The notes beneath the pieces are model-generated. The model was not told the origin of the DNA and did not search any database. It was given only the letters and a program-made list of their open reading frames with translations. A program made the translations under genes and the position numbers. From the NCBI GenBank assembly GCA_003157295.1, contig PMJF01000064.1, forward strand, positions 1-12,750: a stretch of 12,750 nt of DNA, read 5' to 3'. The DNA comes from Candidatus Moraniibacteriota bacterium. Its GTDB lineage: Bacteria; Patescibacteriota; Minisyncoccia; Moranbacterales; UBA11712. Below are positions 5,532 to 9,629 of this stretch, piece after piece. Each line of letters starts with the position of its first letter. Positions within the stretch are counted from its first letter, which is position 1.

Positions 5532-6831
5532 AAAAATAAGGCAAAATTATAAAACAATTCTCAGGTTCGGAATTAGATCTCCCCACGAGTGGTCAGTTGT
5601 CTTTCGCATGGCTTTTCGCAATCTCCGGATGAACAAGATGCGCACGGCCCTTACCACGCTTGGCATAATCATCGGAATTATGTCGGTGATCATTGTGATG
5701 GCGGGCGGAGCGGCTCTCAAGGGTTTTGTGATTGGCCAGGTGGCGGCTTTTGGAAGTGATTATATCCAGGTGGAAGTGAAGGTTCCCGGAACGGGCGCCA
5801 CATCTCTGGCTAATGCCACGGGGCGCGCGACTGGCGTTTCGATAACGACGCTCAAAGAAGAAGACGCGAAAGCCGTGGCGAAAATTCCGAACGTTTCCGC
5901 CTGGGCGGCGGGAAATATGGATCAGGAACTGGTTGCCTACAAAAACACCACAAAACGGGCAATTCTTTTTGGCGTCAGCCCAACTTGGCCGCTGATTGAC
6001 GCCCAAGCAATAATTGATGAAGGAAATTTTTTTTCGGATGGTGAAAACAACGCGCTTAACCAGGTGGCGGTCATTGGTTCTGGAGTCAAAGACAGCTTTT
6101 TTGGTCTGGAAGATCCGATCGGGAAAAATATCAAAATAAAAGGGCAAAGTTACCGGGTGATCGGCGTCGGAAAGAAAAGGGGAGCGGCCGGATTCATCAG
6201 CTTTGACGACGCCATTTTCGTTCCGGTGAATACGCTCAATAAAAAACTGCTCGGCATAAACTATTTTCAGTTTGTCACTTTCAAAGTTGCGGACCAGGCG
6301 CGCATGGAGCAGACGGCGCTTGATATCCGCGCCGTAATGGACAAGCAGCATAAAACCACGGATCCGGACAAGGAAGATTTTTCCGTGGTTTCAGCGACGG
6401 AAGGAATGAAAATTCTCAACAGCGTTTTTGGAACTATAAATTATTTGTTGCTGGCGCTCACTTCCATCTCGCTCGTTGTCGGAGGAGTGGGGATCATGAA
6501 CGTCATGTATGTGGCCGTCACGGAGCGCACCCGGGAAATTGGCCTTCGCAAAGCGCTCGGCGCCAGGAATTCCGGAATTCTGCGGCAGTTTTTGTTCGAA
6601 GCGCTGGTCGTCACTTTTTTGGGCGGAGTGATCGGAATTGTGCTCGGCGTCGGAGCGACCTTTCTTCTAAATCAGCTAATAGCGAACTTTGGTTATAATC
6701 TTATTTTTACGATACCGCTCGAATCAATTCTGATCGCCGTAGGATTTTCTTTCTTCACAGGTCTCATTTTCGGCATCTATCCGGCTTGGAAAGCTTCGCA
6801 ACTTTTGCCCATCGAGGCGTTGCGGAAGTAG
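5524..6831 (+). CDS. MacB-like ABC transporter permease, second copy
   Basis: 435 residues and clearly paralogous to the preceding permease, with the same topology: first helix about 41-63 (TTLGIIIGIMSVIIVMAG), core domain, and three C-terminal helices. The hallmark segment here reads GGVGIMNVMYVAVTERTREI followed by GLRKALGA, and the end is YPAWKASQLLPIEALRK. It carries an extra basic N-terminal extension of about 25 residues. I chose ATG 5524, which overlaps the upstream stop by 8 nt and has a weak GAGG 12 nt upstream, over an in-frame TTG at 5506. Tandem non-identical permeases imply a heterodimeric exporter. It is the last gene of the operon and faces a converging minus-strand terminator. 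Confidence 0.95.
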   Translation: MNKKIRQNYKTILRFGIRSPHEWSVVFRMAFRNLRMNKMRTALTTLGIIIGIMSVIIVMAGGAALKGFVIGQVAAFGSDYIQVEVKVPGTGATSLANATGRATGVSITTLKEEDAKAVAKIPNVSAWAAGNMDQELVAYKNTTKRAILFGVSPTWPLIDAQAIIDEGNFFSDGENNALNQVAVIGSGVKDSFFGLEDPIGKNIKIKGQSYRVIGVGKKRGAAGFISFDDAIFVPVNTLNKKLLGINYFQFVTFKVADQARMEQTALDIRAVMDKQHKTTDPDKEDFSVVSATEGMKILNSVFGTINYLLLALTSISLVVGGVGIMNVMYVAVTERTREIGLRKALGARNSGILRQFLFEALVVTFLGGVIGIVLGVGATFLLNQLIANFGYNLIFTIPLESILIAVGFSFFTGLIFGIYPAWKASQLLPIEALRK

Positions 6832-6885
6832 AAGCCAACACGAAAAAAACACATCCAGAGATGCGTTAAATAATAAGGGTCGATT

Positions 6886-6934
6886 AAATAAAAGAGCCCC
6901 GGCTATAGGCTGCTGGATGAGCTTCTAGCCGGGG
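6886..6934 (-). terminator. intrinsic terminator ending the minus-strand island
   Basis: CCCCGGCTA (6897-6905) pairs perfectly with TAGCCGGGG (6926-6934). Read on the minus strand, the stem is followed by CTCTTTTATTT. It faces the end of the exporter operon and may also slow + strand read-through, although its + side tail is poor. Confidence 0.7.
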
Positions 6935-6938
6935 TTTG

Positions 6939-7169
6939 CCCTCAAAAGAGGGTGCGTGGTATTAACTCACGCTTTGTGGGATCGCTGTTAAAATCCGGAC
7001 AGCCTTGGCCTGCCGCTATTCCGGGAGGAATTTTGGAAGGTTTAAAGGCGGGATGCGACCCCAATTTGAGATAGGACATCCTCCTTCCCCGGTTTTCACT
7101 TGGCCGAGGACCAAGGGAGGACCCGCGCTGACCAAAGCAAGGGGCGCAGGTCGGGATCAGGCTATCATA
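6939..7169 (-). ncRNA. candidate structured minus-strand transcript (unit E)
   Basis: The region between two minus-strand terminators holds several short hairpins: CCCTC/GAGGG (6939-6952), GCGTG/CACGC (6954-6972) and, in minus sense, CTTGG/CCAAG near 7100-7116. A TATGAT box lies on the minus strand at 7164-7169 but has no convincing -35. A 45-codon minus ORF (7079-6942, starting MSYLKLGSHP) exists, but its GGAAGGAGG abuts the ATG with no spacing and its stop falls in the first hairpin, so coding is doubtful. The unit may be an RNA, a small-protein gene or neither. Confidence 0.3.
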
Positions 7170-7206
7170 AATACTTGAAATTGAAAAGGGAGATATTTTT
7201 GCCAAC

Positions 7207-7232
7207 AAAAAAACCAGTTTGGATTTCTGGTT
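7207..7232 (-). terminator. small intrinsic terminator, minus strand
   Basis: AACCAG (7212-7217) and CTGGTT (7227-7232) form a 6-bp stem with a 9-nt loop. On the minus strand the stem runs into TTTTT. It is probably a back-up to the terminator at 7257-7308. Confidence 0.5.
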
Positions 7233-7256
7233 GAGTATCTTGATGTTTGATCTTGA

Positions 7257-7308
7257 GAAATAAAAGGAGCCTGCACAGTTGGCCCCAGCCAAACCAATTG
7301 TGCAGGCT
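7257..7308 (-). terminator. strong intrinsic terminator, possibly bidirectional
   Basis: AGCCTGCACAGTTGG (7268-7282) pairs with CCAATTGTGCAGGCT (7294-7308): 15 bp with one wobble and an 11-nt loop. The minus-strand tail is CCTTTTATTT; the plus-strand tail TTCTATT is weaker. Confidence 0.75.
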
Positions 7309-7640
7309 TTCTATTGCGTGGACTCCGAAAAAAATTCAGAAATAATATAATGTTACTGATGTTGAGAATGTTCTCTAAATAAGGAACTGCGGCCTGAAGA
7401 GGGCGCCCCAAAGGTGTTGTTTGGCATATGCCCACCCTCTCCAGGGAAAATACCAACCCTAGGATATCTGCATATAATAGTTAAGGCGCTCTCAATGAAT
7501 TGAGATTTTTTTCGCCTCGTCTTGTGCAAGTGCAGATATCCCATTTTCGCTACTGAGGCGGTACTCTATGGAAGTGCTACCTCCTAAATCCGCGCTATTA
7601 TGATAGCCGCGGTTGGTTATGTAGAACTTTTCTCCCCTTG
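7309..7640 (-). ncRNA. candidate structured minus-strand transcript (unit D)
   Basis: A stretch between a minus-strand promoter (7647-7675) and the terminator at 7257-7308. Its centre is a long-range inverted repeat, GGATATCTGCA (7462-7472) with TGCAGATATCC (7531-7541). This encloses AGGCG/CGCCT (7484-7488, 7513-7517), which in turn encloses CTCAAT/ATTGAG (7491-7504). This nesting favours one folded RNA. Only short ORFs occur; the best has 23 codons (ATG at 7423 on the minus strand) behind a GGAGAGG. I cannot match it to a known RNA family. Confidence 0.4.
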
Positions 7641-7646
7641 TAATGG

Positions 7647-7675
7647 AATATAAAGGATTGCGTAAATTTTTGCAA
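7647..7675 (-). promoter_or_regulatory. candidate sigma-70-like promoter for unit D
   Basis: On the minus strand: TTGCAA (7675-7670), a 17-nt spacer, then TATATT (7652-7647). It lies just after two minus-strand terminators, as expected for a new transcription start. Confidence 0.5.
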
Positions 7676-7705
7676 ATAAAAAAAAGCCTTTTAGCGTTGG
7701 CTTTT
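7674..7705 (-). terminator. short intrinsic terminator, minus strand
   Basis: AAAAGCC (7682-7688) with GGCTTTT (7699-7705), followed on the minus strand by a T-rich run. It is second in tandem behind the stronger hairpin at 7726-7757 and overlaps the -35 of the next promoter. Confidence 0.5.
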
Positions 7706-7712
7706 GAATTTC

Positions 7713-7757
7713 AAAAAAAACGGTTGAGTGGAATCGGTTGTTAAACCGATCCCACTC
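7713..7757 (-). terminator. strong intrinsic terminator of the 191-residue gene
   Basis: GAGTGGAATCGGTT (7726-7739) and AACCGATCCCACTC (7744-7757) form a 14-bp stem with a GTTA loop. The single A/C mismatch becomes a G-U pair in the minus-strand RNA, which then runs into eight U residues. The asymmetry shows that minus is the intended strand. A 3' untranslated region of about 110 nt lies between the stop and this stem and includes ACCCGGCTT/AAGCCGGT (7830-7855). Confidence 0.85.
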
Positions 7758-7865
7758 GGGATCCTAGCTGATGCCAGGAGTTTAGTCTTGCGTTTGAGTC
7801 AGAAATCAATGAGAGGAGTCGCACCTCCCACCCGGCTTATAACTCCAAAGCCGGTGTACCTTTAC

Positions 7866-8441
7866 TTAGACGAAGGCCGCCGCCATGTCGTAGTTGAACC
7901 CGATGGGGGTGCCCCGGGCGGCCGCCAGATGGGCGTAGGCTTTGGCGTGGTCGTAGAACCGGGAACCGGCGGCTGTGGCCTTGTTGGCTTTGCCGGCGAT
8001 ATTGTCCCAGGGGGCCATCTTCTTAAATTCGGCCTCTCCCGCTTTGCATTTGGGGTCGTTGGCCGCTTCTTGGTGTTGCGCTTGACCCGGGACCGCCAGC
8101 CGTATCAGCTCGAAGGCCACCCGGGGAGTCCACGGAGAGGTTTTGCGCAGGTCGGCGGGCGATGCCTGATAGGCTTCCACTTTTTGCCCATAGATGCCGG
8201 CCTCAGCCAGGTTAAAGTCAGCCATGAAAGGTACTTTCCCCACGGAGACCTCGGAGGGTTTAAGCCCATGTATGGAGATCGCAGCCGCGATGTCAGCGCC
8301 TAAACCGATCTTTTCTGCGGTCAAGGGGGCGCCAACGATACCGCCCAAGCGGGGCGAGCCATCCAGATCCAAACTCACGCCATAGCCCATGGCTTGTGCG
8401 TGGATCAATGCCAATGTTGCTTTGTCTTGCCGTGTCAACAT
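7866..8441 (-). CDS. GC-rich orphan protein of unknown function
   Basis: 191 residues starting MLTRQDKATL and ending MAAAFV. I recognise no family. The protein is soluble-looking with no signal or membrane segment. It is rich in Ala, Gly and Lys, has one Cys, and has a Trp/Pro-containing centre (KTSPWTPRVAFELIRL, about residues 110-125). Coding is supported by a strong SD (AGGTGGAG, 4 nt before the ATG), a dedicated upstream promoter (8617-8644), a downstream terminator, and GC-rich third codon positions in this frame only. A hand count of 7921-8400 gives about 62% GC, well above the neighbouring genes. The strong SD and composition differ from the rest of the window and suggest recent transfer or a distinct expression regime. 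The leader (about 165 nt) has a GTGAGA/TCTCAC stem (8461-8497). Confidence 0.8.
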   Translation of the reverse strand: MLTRQDKATLALIHAQAMGYGVSLDLDGSPRLGGIVGAPLTAEKIGLGADIAAAISIHGLKPSEVSVGKVPFMADFNLAEAGIYGQKVEAYQASPADLRKTSPWTPRVAFELIRLAVPGQAQHQEAANDPKCKAGEAEFKKMAPWDNIAGKANKATAAGSRFYDHAKAYAHLAAARGTPIGFNYDMAAAFV

Positions 8442-8616
8442 GGTTCTCCACCTCGTAAGAGTGAGAGGTTGATAAGAAGATACTTTCAGTTTCTCACCGC
8501 TTCTTCCATAGCAGTGATGCGACTTTTTTCCTCCTTTTTTATGGGATTAACTGATTTGGAACGTGGGGATTTTGTTGGGAAGGAGCAAATATATAGAAAC
8601 GTTTTACGTTGTTTAT

Positions 8617-8644
8617 ATAATAACACAAAACAACAGTTGCGCAA
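8617..8644 (-). promoter_or_regulatory. promoter of the 191-residue orphan gene
   Basis: On the minus strand: TTGCGC (8644-8639), a 16-nt spacer, TATTAT (8622-8617). An alternative -10, TTATAT, gives an 18-nt spacer. It sits immediately after the terminator at 8655-8679, in an AT-rich patch between GC-rich blocks. Confidence 0.55.
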
Positions 8645-8654
8645 TATATGTAAC

Positions 8655-8679
8655 AAAAAAAGCCTTTCTACAAAGCTTT
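8655..8679 (-). terminator. intrinsic terminator of the upstream minus-strand unit (unit B)
   Basis: On the minus strand AAGCTTT and AAGGCTT form a 7-bp stem (one wobble) with a 5-6 nt loop, followed by TTTTTTTG. There is no T tract on the plus side, so the direction is clear. Confidence 0.65.
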
Positions 8680-8695
8680 AAAAAATAAGTGGTGA

Positions 8696-8754
8696 GGCGG
8701 GTAATCAACGTTTGGTGAGAAAGGATATTATCCCGTCTCCGTTGATTACCCACC
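8696..8754 (-). repeat. long imperfect hairpin downstream of the 39-codon ORF
   Basis: GGCGGGTAATCAACG (8696-8710) pairs with CGTTGATTACCCACC (8740-8754), 15 bp with one wobble. The 29-nt interior can itself form GAGA/TCTC and GGAT/ATCC. Upstream on the same transcript are ACCAGCTGGACAGCTGGT (8766-8783, perfect inverted repeat) and GCCTCC/GGAGGC with a tetraloop (8790-8805). Together they make a dense 3' structured region before the terminator. Confidence 0.7.
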
Positions 8755-8822
8755 TCGAGTGTTGCACCAGCTGGACAGCTGGTTACCTTGCCTCCCTCAG
8801 GAGGCTTCTTCCCGCCCGGCGC

Positions 8823-8942
8823 TTAGAAGTTGCAGCCCTTGGTGGCATCGTCTTTTTCCCGGCAGTTGGACCGCATCCCGATCTTGGTGGCCGTGCCGGC
8901 GATGGTGGTGTACCCGGTAATAGCCTGCAGCAGTCGTTGCAT
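8823..8942 (-). CDS. possible 39-residue small protein
   Basis: ATG at 8942 on the minus strand, TAA at 8823-8825. The product begins MQRLLQAITGYTTIAG and ends KGCNF, with two cysteines. Support comes from an SD-like AAGAAGGGG six nt before the ATG, strongly GC-rich third positions in this frame (like the 191-residue gene downstream), and position inside a unit with its own promoter and terminator. The overlapping minus frame from 9000 is His-rich and looks like an out-of-phase reading. The ORF is short, so chance cannot be excluded. It could be a small regulatory or toxin-like peptide, but nothing in it assigns a role. Confidence 0.4.
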   Translation of the reverse strand: MQRLLQAITGYTTIAGTATKIGMRSNCREKDDATKGCNF

Positions 8943-9010
8943 AATCGTCCCCTTCTTGGTGCCCCAGTCGAAGCTGAGGCTTCTGATTTTTAGTGGTCAT
9001 TTGGTATGAG

Positions 9011-9187
9011 CTAGTGGGTTTTCCGACCCGCAATCCTCGAAGGGATTCTCACACTAGGAGTACGCGGTGAAATGCTTATACTACCGATAATGTGTCGGGT
9101 AGCGTATCCTCCTCTTCCATACGTTGATGGTTTACTGCATCATCTCTTCGACCTGGGGGAGCCGATGATAATTGGCTATGGACGAAG
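9011..9187 (-). ncRNA. structured leader of unit B, with a predicted three-way junction
   Basis: Three successive folds lie between the minus promoter at 9208-9236 and the 39-codon ORF. First, CTTCG/CGAAG (9146-9150, 9183-9187) encloses AGCCGAT-GATA-ATTGGCT (9160-9177). Second, TACGC/GCGTA (9061-9065, 9102-9106) overlaps the end of CTACC/GGTAG (9081-9085, 9098-9102). Third, CTAGTG/CACTAG (9011-9016, 9052-9057) closes two hairpins, GGT/ACC (9017-9028) and AATCC/GGATT (9032-9047). The last has the shape of a compact three-way junction, a layout used by many riboswitches. I do not recognise the consensus of any named class. It could equally be the 5' half of one large structured RNA reaching the terminator at 8655. 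Confidence 0.5.
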
Positions 9188-9207
9188 AAAATGCGGTGTT
9201 AATCACA

Positions 9208-9236
9208 AGAATACAATATAAATAAAATATCTGCAA
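9208..9236 (-). promoter_or_regulatory. candidate promoter of unit B
   Basis: On the minus strand: TTGCAG (9236-9231), a 17-nt spacer, TATTCT (9213-9208). The transcript would start near 9200 and enter the structured leader at once. Confidence 0.45.
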
Positions 9237-9276
9237 TATACTAGTATTAACTGTGACTGTGGATAACTTTTAAAAG

Positions 9277-9497
9277 AATTCCTGCAAGCGGAGAGGTTCT
9301 GTGACCAGCCCAAGGAGAGGAAAAGCTGGTGGCGTGATGAGCGGGTGGCAAGGGCGAGCTTCCTCATAAAGGCGTCCCCCAGAGGAGCTCAAGCTCAACG
9401 CGCGTAGCCAGGGCGAGCTCCGCAAAAACGCGCCGCCGCCGATATCTCTCATCACCTTCCCTTTTCAGCCTCAACCGCTTGCAGGAATTTCTTTTTT
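9277..9497. ncRNA. candidate structured RNA of about 220 nt, family unknown
   Basis: AATTCCTGCAAGCGG (9277-9291) and CCGCTTGCAGGAATT (9475-9489) form a perfect 15-bp terminal stem. Inside are GTGATGAG/CTCATCAC (9334-9341, 9448-9455), ACCAGC/GCTGGT (9304-9330) and GAGCTTCCTC with GAGGAGCTC (9356-9390, one bulge). AGGGCGAGCT is present twice directly (9351-9360, 9410-9419). On the plus side the terminal stem runs into TTCTTTTTT. On the minus side there is a good promoter just outside the stem (TTGACT at 9521-9516, 17-nt spacer, TAAAAA at 9498-9493), so the strand is unresolved. The rod-like closing stem and size recall 6S RNA, but I cannot confirm this. RNase P, tmRNA and SRP signature sequences are absent. 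Confidence 0.6.
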
Positions 9498-9529
9498 AGC
9501 AAGGCACAAGGAAAAAGTCAAGAAAAACA

Positions 9530-9557
9530 TTGACAAACGCTCTCAATCTGCTAAATT
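9530..9557 (+). promoter_or_regulatory. promoter of the DUF4012 gene
   Basis: A perfect TTGACA (9530-9535), a 16-nt spacer and TAAATT (9552-9557). The leader of about 65 nt contains the GC-rich hairpin at 9586-9604. Confidence 0.65.
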
Positions 9558-9604: not shown

Positions 9605-9629
9605 AAGTATCTTGTATCTGGTATTTTGT

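Follow-up and report, generated by a model that had tools for sequence, protein, structure and literature searches.

The window analysed here is a stretch of 12,750 nucleotides (nt; G000:C60:1-12750) from a 90%-complete Candidatus Moraniibacteriota genome of 1.02 Mb in 84 contigs. Its plus strand carries, in order, genes for a MacA-type adaptor, an ABC ATPase and two MacB/FtsX-type permeases, then a gap at 6832-9530 and a gene for a DUF4012 protein, identified at E 4.5e-25. The gap is probably a fixed chromosomal site of one Moranbacteria family, occupied by a hypervariable row of small ORFan genes and stand-alone structured RNAs. The macB-type permease gene ends at 6831 and the DUF4012 gene starts at 9612 or 9636. 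An earlier note on this DNA described a gene-sparse gap without a plus-strand gene. The gap is real, and a scan for open reading frames (ORFs) gave no convincing plus-strand gene between the permease and DUF4012 genes. It is not empty, however; the minus strand encodes a genuine protein of 191 amino acids (aa) and probably a 39-aa peptide.

A probable fixed site with changing content

Eight genomes of the family, G000 (the window's own) to G007, were compared, G001 belonging to the same genus as the window. The order macB2, gap, DUF4012 is complete in G000, G001, G002, G006 and G007, the gap measuring 2194 nt in G001, 1872 in G002, 3169 in G006 and 1170 in G007. A similar array follows the macB-type permease in 7 of 7 family relatives, three of which are seen in part: in G003 the site falls on two contig ends, one showing the array from DUF4012 inwards and the other a 286-nt stub beside macB; G005 shows 1.3 kb after macB2, and G004 only 178 nt. 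Minus-strand hairpins with T-tracts were found by reading in all of these relatives, in G004 on little sequence. The unit content of the site differs between genera.

In G008, the sole genome examined from another family, macB2 is followed by ordinary plus-strand genes. Among the best 80 DUF4012 loci of named genomes, macB2 lies within the flank in four, which are G001, G002, G006 and G007. The whole gap, searched against 54 genomes, matched three, its own genome and, at the DUF4012 promoter only, G006 and G007; the plasmids and phages searched gave no match.

Structured RNA units in relatives

Unit D is a terminator-ended RNA candidate found in G002, G003 and G005, which represent three genera. 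It has a 21-pair hairpin and a closing stem that doubles as the terminator stem. In the three sequences 9 of 36 pairs are changed on both sides and 97.1% of cells are paired; none of 500 shuffles scored as high and slid versions of the structure gave 0-3. Of 128 genomes searched across the order, a covariance model found the unit in four, the same three and G014 (E 2.9e-7). With G014 as a fourth sequence the count rises to 12 of 36 pairs, against 0-4 in slid controls that were partly favoured, the structure having been derived from three sequences and G014 aligned to it. Identity in unit D is 128/178, compared with 862/1275 in the macB2 coding sequence (CDS). Unit D is definable as a new RNA family with a clear predicted structure.

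In the 80 named DUF4012 loci, unit D reached E <0.001 only at those of G002 and G003, and the window gave no match up to E 10 with either model, R1 or R2. A search of 379 genomes of the phylum with R2 found none, which is weak evidence of absence as the filters were stricter and no known carrier was among the genomes listed. In G014, which belongs to another family, a lone unit D (L179:5077-5229) lies between ABC-type permease and epimerase-like genes, so named from reading of their translations, and runs opposite to both; no macB2 or DUF4012 match was found in the 13 kb seen around it. A weak match (26 bits, E 0.0054) was seen in another Moraniibacteriota genome at L061:7449-7533.

In unit C, shared by G006 and G007, 15 of 134 predicted pairs are changed on both sides, and the mean alignment z is -3.47 on the sense and -1.05 on the antisense strand (7 blocks each). 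The corresponding values for unit B, present in G002, G006 and G007, are -3.27 and -2.01 (3 blocks each). With these compensatory changes, and in unit C the sense-strand alignment z, at least units C and D appear to be RNAs whose structure is under selection on the minus strand of the array. One block of unit A, a unit that G002 and G006 share, is identical at 189 of 197 positions; the DUF4012 CDS of this genome pair has 1026 of 1335. Among the 128 genomes, units A-C matched 10, of which three had long matches, all in genus g2, and seven had matches over 22-66 bases; none was found in phages.

The 191-aa protein gene

The minus-strand ORF at 8441-7866, with GAGGTGGAG preceding its ATG, is a real gene that the earlier note had overlooked. 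It is taken as coding because of its codon-position GC (0.62/0.48/0.70) and its per-residue codon score, similar to that of the DUF4012 gene. A search of 5.8 billion proteins with the 191-aa product returned a sole match, P0001, which is identical in its last 142 residues and apparently stems from the window's own organism. P0001, on a 38,879-base contig, has another start (MSATPVTHR...), a hint of strain variation or of a chimeric assembly within the gene.

The minus strand of the G001 gap encodes a 141-aa homologue, P0002 (BLASTP E 2e-5 in a two-sequence comparison), entered in the database as a hypothetical protein of a Moranbacteria bacterium. It occupies the same genomic site as the 191-aa gene in the window. 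A profile built from the two proteins matched P0002, itself in the profile, at E 2.6e-59 and P0003 and P0004 at 8.2e-32 and 1.1e-29. The family thus comprises four database proteins, P0001-P0004. Within the order, matches occur in G000 and G001 only among 128 genomes; a search of 54 genomes found the protein in its own genome only, and none was found in the phages or viral contigs searched. For the 191-aa protein and P0003, AlphaFold gave models with pLDDT (predicted local distance difference test) values of 32.5 and 34.5, which did not go into a fold search.

The gene lies in the third unit of the window, T3. A promoter-like site, TTGCGC-16-TATTAT, was found by reading at 8617-8644 on the minus strand, near which the scan gives instead other weak promoter-like sites, at 8670-8643 and 8615-8588; TTGTGT-17-TATAAT was read upstream of the G001 homologue. 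The leader ahead of the gene is 170 nt long. Within it, a motif scan found a Shine-Dalgarno-like AAGGAGG (8529-8540, minus) with no ATG at the usual spacing, and this motif is also present in the leader of the homologue. The 3' end (7678-7757, minus) consists of a strong 14-bp hairpin at 7757-7726 with T8 and a weak second hairpin, AAAAGCC..GGC-T8, at 7705-7678. The local fold z on the minus strand is -6.0 at 7641 and -5.0 at 7701.

Terminator, promoter and folding signals

Terminator-like sites were counted by rules of different stringency. The looser rule, a hairpin energy <= -5 kcal/mol plus a T-run, gave 8 sites on the minus and 5 on the plus strand of the gap, compared with 3.58±1.81 and 3.17 in 60 dinucleotide shuffles. 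On the minus strand it recovers T-runs at 8661, 7720, 7685, 7265 and 6893, that is, five of the six terminators named in the earlier note, and also 9527, 9428 and 6849; the sixth, at 7207, was not recovered. Strong minus-strand stems are those at 7757-7726 (-21.7), 7308-7268 (-25.6) and 6934-6897 (-20.8). The stricter rule gave 2 minus and 1 plus, against 0.33±0.62 on the minus strand and 0.65 on both strands together in 100 shuffles. A generic scan of the whole window found 20 terminator-like sites, no excess over the 17.6±5.0 expected, and 29 promoter-like sites against 14.3±3.5, with the excess on both strands. In the gap, too, promoter-like sites are present on both strands. The claim that every directional signal points to the same strand was overstated, because the excess over chance is only modest; the same rule that gave the minus-strand terminators finds five on the plus strand.

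Local folding, measured in 120-nt windows, distinguishes the gap from its surroundings. Outside the 191-aa ORF the mean fold z is -1.27 on the minus and -1.02 on the plus strand, with 8/31 and 7/31 windows below -2. The flanking genes have means of 0.02 and 0.14, with 3/103 and 2/103 below -2, and the 191-aa ORF +0.38 on the minus and +0.44 on the plus strand (8 windows). The gap is therefore enriched for RNA structure, of which the 191-aa ORF shows none.

Other units of the window

From 5' to 3' the minus strand has T1, T2, T3, T4 and T5, followed by a final terminator-like site, so the layout repeated "about five" times in the earlier note is a reasonable description of the unit count. Promoter-like boxes precede T1-T4, those of T1 and T3 found by reading and those of T2 and T4 also given by the scan; T5 is without a convincing one. 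All coordinates in this section are on the minus strand unless noted.

T1 has a weak putative promoter, TTGACT-17-TAAAAA, at 9493-9521; at the corresponding place in G001 TTGACA-17-TAATAT was read. Its body (9272-9494) is a rod-like element of ~220 nt whose closing inverted repeat spans 20 nt with 90% complementarity, and the stretch 9265-9494 folds with z -3.40. A 249-nt stretch at the same place in G001 folds with z -4.44 and has no sequence likeness to T1. A doubtful 60-aa ORF lies within T1 (9270-9452), with GGGAAGG shortly ahead of its ATG.

The promoter-like site of T2, TCCACA-17-TATATT, is at 9235-9263. The 39-aa ORF at 8823-8942, which a leader precedes, has AAGGGG 6 nt ahead of its ATG and probably encodes a peptide. 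Neither it nor the 60-aa ORF matched a family in Pfam, PHROG or PADLOC. The 3' end of T2 (8655-8756) is formed by a 17-bp hairpin, 8756-8740 / 8710-8694, and a second hairpin, AAAGCTTTGTAGAAAGGC-T7; the 191-aa gene and the 39-aa ORF thus both have a 3' hairpin pair ending in a T-tract. At 8661 the local fold z is -6.2 on the minus and -3.9 on the plus strand, and 74.5% of 51 bases match the stretch 3' of the G001 141-aa gene (E 8e-4).

T4 is preceded by TTGCAA-17-TATATT at 7647-7675. Fold and hairpin scans give it a structured body (7258-7646) with a 15-bp hairpin and TTTTATTT at its end, and this hairpin can also be read as a plus-strand terminator; the fold of 7200-7650 has z -6.00. The weak hairpin AACCAG..CTGGTT-T7 at 7207-7232 is the one missed at <= -5 kcal/mol. 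T5, whose start is a guess, is a structured body (6886-7160) with the 3' hairpin CCCCGGCTA..TAGCCGGGG and TCTTTTATTT; the fold of 6885-7330, which overlaps the end of T4, has z -5.50. The final terminator-like site, found by the scans at 6843-6867, faces the macB-type gene. T1, T4 and T5 would be RNAs of the same sort as the units of the relatives, an assignment made from folding and position, as the RNAs of the window have no detectable homologue.

At its right edge the gap is bounded by a plus-strand promoter-like site ahead of the DUF4012 gene, TTGACA-16-TAAATT with a TG extension (9530-9557, scan); the DNA around it has 95% identity in G007 and 86% in G006. The DUF4012 protein has its best named relatives in Candidatus Moranbacteria / Moraniibacteriota. 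A simple codon-score gene finder shows six intergenic stretches >1 kb in 215,753 bases of the genome, two of them supplied by the gap, which its single gene divides; the longest stretch (1,429) is situated elsewhere.

Translation signals

Shine-Dalgarno use was tested at the first ATG of predicted genes, with a match of >=5 bases and starts that were not curated. In a G000 sample of 186 genes 2-9% have a match, depending on length class, compared with 4.4% of random ATGs; in G006 (308 genes) the values are 7-12% and 4.6%. An anti-Shine-Dalgarno sequence adjoins the 16S rRNA matches in G006 and G003; the search of G000 gave no 16S rRNA. The island ORFs mostly carry Shine-Dalgarno-like sequences. 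In seven islands the hexamers number 28 on the sense strand against 9.0±3.7 in shuffles, and 11 against 10.0 on the antisense strand; other intergenic DNA has ~0.9 hits per strand-kb. An anti-Shine-Dalgarno-like loop seen in unit C was set aside, such motifs not being enriched (11 vs 10.0).

Genome-wide, Shine-Dalgarno-led genes number 28 in G006, against 17 for reversed motifs and 6 for complements, and 11, 3 and 5 in G000. These counts are suggestive of a small genome-wide class of such genes. The class was rejected as proven, as a looser count showed no excess (136 vs 170 and 153). Low Shine-Dalgarno users include Bacteroidetes, Cyanobacteria and others (PMC5397173), and the available part of that source has no occurrence of Parcubacteria or CPR (candidate phyla radiation). 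A literature search on Shine-Dalgarno use found nothing on this group among the papers listed.

Strong Shine-Dalgarno motifs without a normally spaced ATG were observed in the window, at 8529-8540 and 7579-7585 (minus), and in leaders of G001, G002 and G006. Some of these leaders have ATT, ATC or ATA instead; they could be due to chance. A second gene-sparse stretch, L148 (G006:C1 ~392,700-398,700), has small minus-strand Shine-Dalgarno-led ORFs and T-tracts and no DNA match to units A-C. The rRNA genes of G006 look interrupted, as judged from their matches: the 16S rRNA (L169) breaks near GTCGTAA and CAAGGCATCCGTAG resumes ~770 bases on, and the 23S rRNA match (L130) covers 4,036 bases against the 2,925 positions of its model.

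Comparison with known elements

When 4227 Rfam families were searched against the window, only a tRNA at 1182-1252 scored over the cut-off. At E<=5 two matches in the gap were both far below cut-off, and at E<=1 the loci of six relatives gave five tRNAs and one match far below cut-off. ARAGORN found no tRNA or tmRNA in the gap and in the window only the tRNA-Trp at 1182. With these negatives, and with units that differ between genera, a housekeeping RNA such as tmRNA was rejected.

The array resembles stand-alone bacterial small RNAs in its hairpins, in terminator stems with a U-tract, in promoter-like sites found by reading and in the compensatory change of unit D. It differs from them in having no Rfam family at cut-off, tRNAs outside the gap aside, and in lining up several unrelated units at a single site, with a turnover from genus to genus. 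With ORFan and hypervariable accessory loci it shares fixed flanks, changing content and proteins with few or no database relatives, whereas it has few long ORFs, one-strand units with their own terminators and no recombinase recognised in the window. The hypervariation described in a Gracilibacterium (PMC6851277) concerns, in the available part of that source, a repeat-bearing gene. A literature search on such arrays or RNAs in this group found no earlier description among the papers listed, which is thin evidence of novelty.

In G001 a Y1/REP-type transposase gene (REP, repetitive extragenic palindrome) lies between macB2 and the array (L018:7865-8530), with CCTAAGATC..GATCTTAGG palindromes. 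Its product scores 21.6 bits with Y1_Tnp (cut-off 23) and 25 bits with REP_Tyr_transpos (E 1.4e-5, cut-off 80). G006 has a copy of the gene with 79% DNA identity, and CCTAAGATC-type palindromes were read at the macB edge of G001, G006 and, in part, G002 and G007. For G001 and G006 a mobile-element history is plausible at this edge, where the RAYT-like (REP-associated tyrosine transposase) gene and palindromes resemble REP elements and their Y1 transposases. The window differs, since none is recognised there and the array units are not repeats; blastn of the gaps found no REP-type palindrome shared with G001.

Interpretation and alternative explanations

Several results weigh against the reading of the gap as a fixed site with a changing row of ORFan genes and RNAs. 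The terminator excess is modest or absent, depending on the rule. The local fold z is nearly equal on the two strands of the gap, as palindromes should give, and is a poor guide to the strand. In unit B only 1 of 52 predicted pairs is changed on both sides, and unit A (z -0.89 sense, -1.50 antisense) was rejected as a structured RNA for want of a sense-strand structural signal. The structures of units C and D were predicted from the same few sequences on which the changes were then counted. In the seven islands reversed Shine-Dalgarno motifs gave 14 matches against 9.9, and distinct sites number 21 sense and 11 antisense (16 and 9 without G006), with 5 and 4 in the window alone. The window's own RNAs have no detectable homologue in the genomes, plasmids, phages or relatives' loci searched. 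This last result, the terminator counts and contents mostly unshared between genera would also suit a decaying spacer, in which old or captured functionless DNA has T-runs, palindromes and one or two ORFs that mimic units. Such a spacer is unlikely: it does not account for the compensatory changes in units C and D, for a unit A block and a unit D conserved at least as well as the neighbouring genes, or for a 191-aa frame that is open, has coding-type GC and is related to P0002-P0004.

It is still less likely that the site is an insertion hotspot of a REP-associated (RAYT, Y1) transposase, where mobile or captured cassettes reach the macB edge and decay. The transposase gene of G001, its copy in G006 and the palindromes of the four relatives speak for this, but the window has no recognised transposase, recombinase or such palindrome among the ORFs and sequences scanned, units A-C occur only at this site in genus g2, matches of 22-66 bases aside, and in the rest of its own genome the gap matches only with one of its own palindromes. 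The "remnant mobile element" of the earlier note is accordingly unsupported in the window. A competition cassette, in which the adjacent exporter would serve small ORFan proteins that are toxic or meant for export, is very improbable. The four upstream genes (adaptor, ATPase, two permeases) do resemble a MacAB-type exporter, and with NCBIfam models the ATPase scores best with the darobactin-export DarD and MacB, all below cut-offs; it also matched PADLOC ATPase-type models, as any ABC ATPase would. The array, however, runs in the direction opposite to the exporter genes, no double-glycine leader or signal peptide is evident by eye (no predictor was used), and several units in the relatives are RNAs. 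The island proteins have no Pfam or PHROG match, and PADLOC at E<=0.1 gave 0 matches for three window ORFs and P0002-P0004, so a "defence/competition cassette" has no positive evidence.

Of the three readings in the earlier note, the best support goes to a cluster of regulatory RNAs and small proteins, in view of the minus-strand units in relatives, the covariation of units C and D and the shared 191-aa gene; "regulatory" goes beyond this. The covariation check proposed there came out favourably for units C and D, while the window's RNAs have no detectable homologue to align.

In the reading preferred here, a fixed site with a hypervariable row of ORFan genes and structured RNAs, the units would be transcribed independently, and gained and lost one by one. 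The RNAs would act in trans, since every one has a terminator of its own and is followed by no gene that it could control. The proteins would be accessory, with fast turnover. The likely products would be small RNAs, together with small proteins of the cytoplasm, adjusted to rivals or hosts in the local setting. A further possibility, advanced tentatively, is that the site is a nursery where structured RNAs and Shine-Dalgarno-led ORFans arise and are replaced unit by unit, the translation signal of their own marking an accessory gene class in genomes whose ordinary genes hardly use Shine-Dalgarno sequences.

Implications

Patescibacteria have small genomes, and to our knowledge little is known of their non-coding RNAs and ORFan genes. 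A fixed site whose content of RNAs and small proteins differs between sister genera would be a place to watch genes appear and vanish. Unit D would provide an RNA family open to searching and probing. The contrast between accessory genes with Shine-Dalgarno sequences and ordinary genes without, if it holds, may pose a testable question on selective translation in this group.

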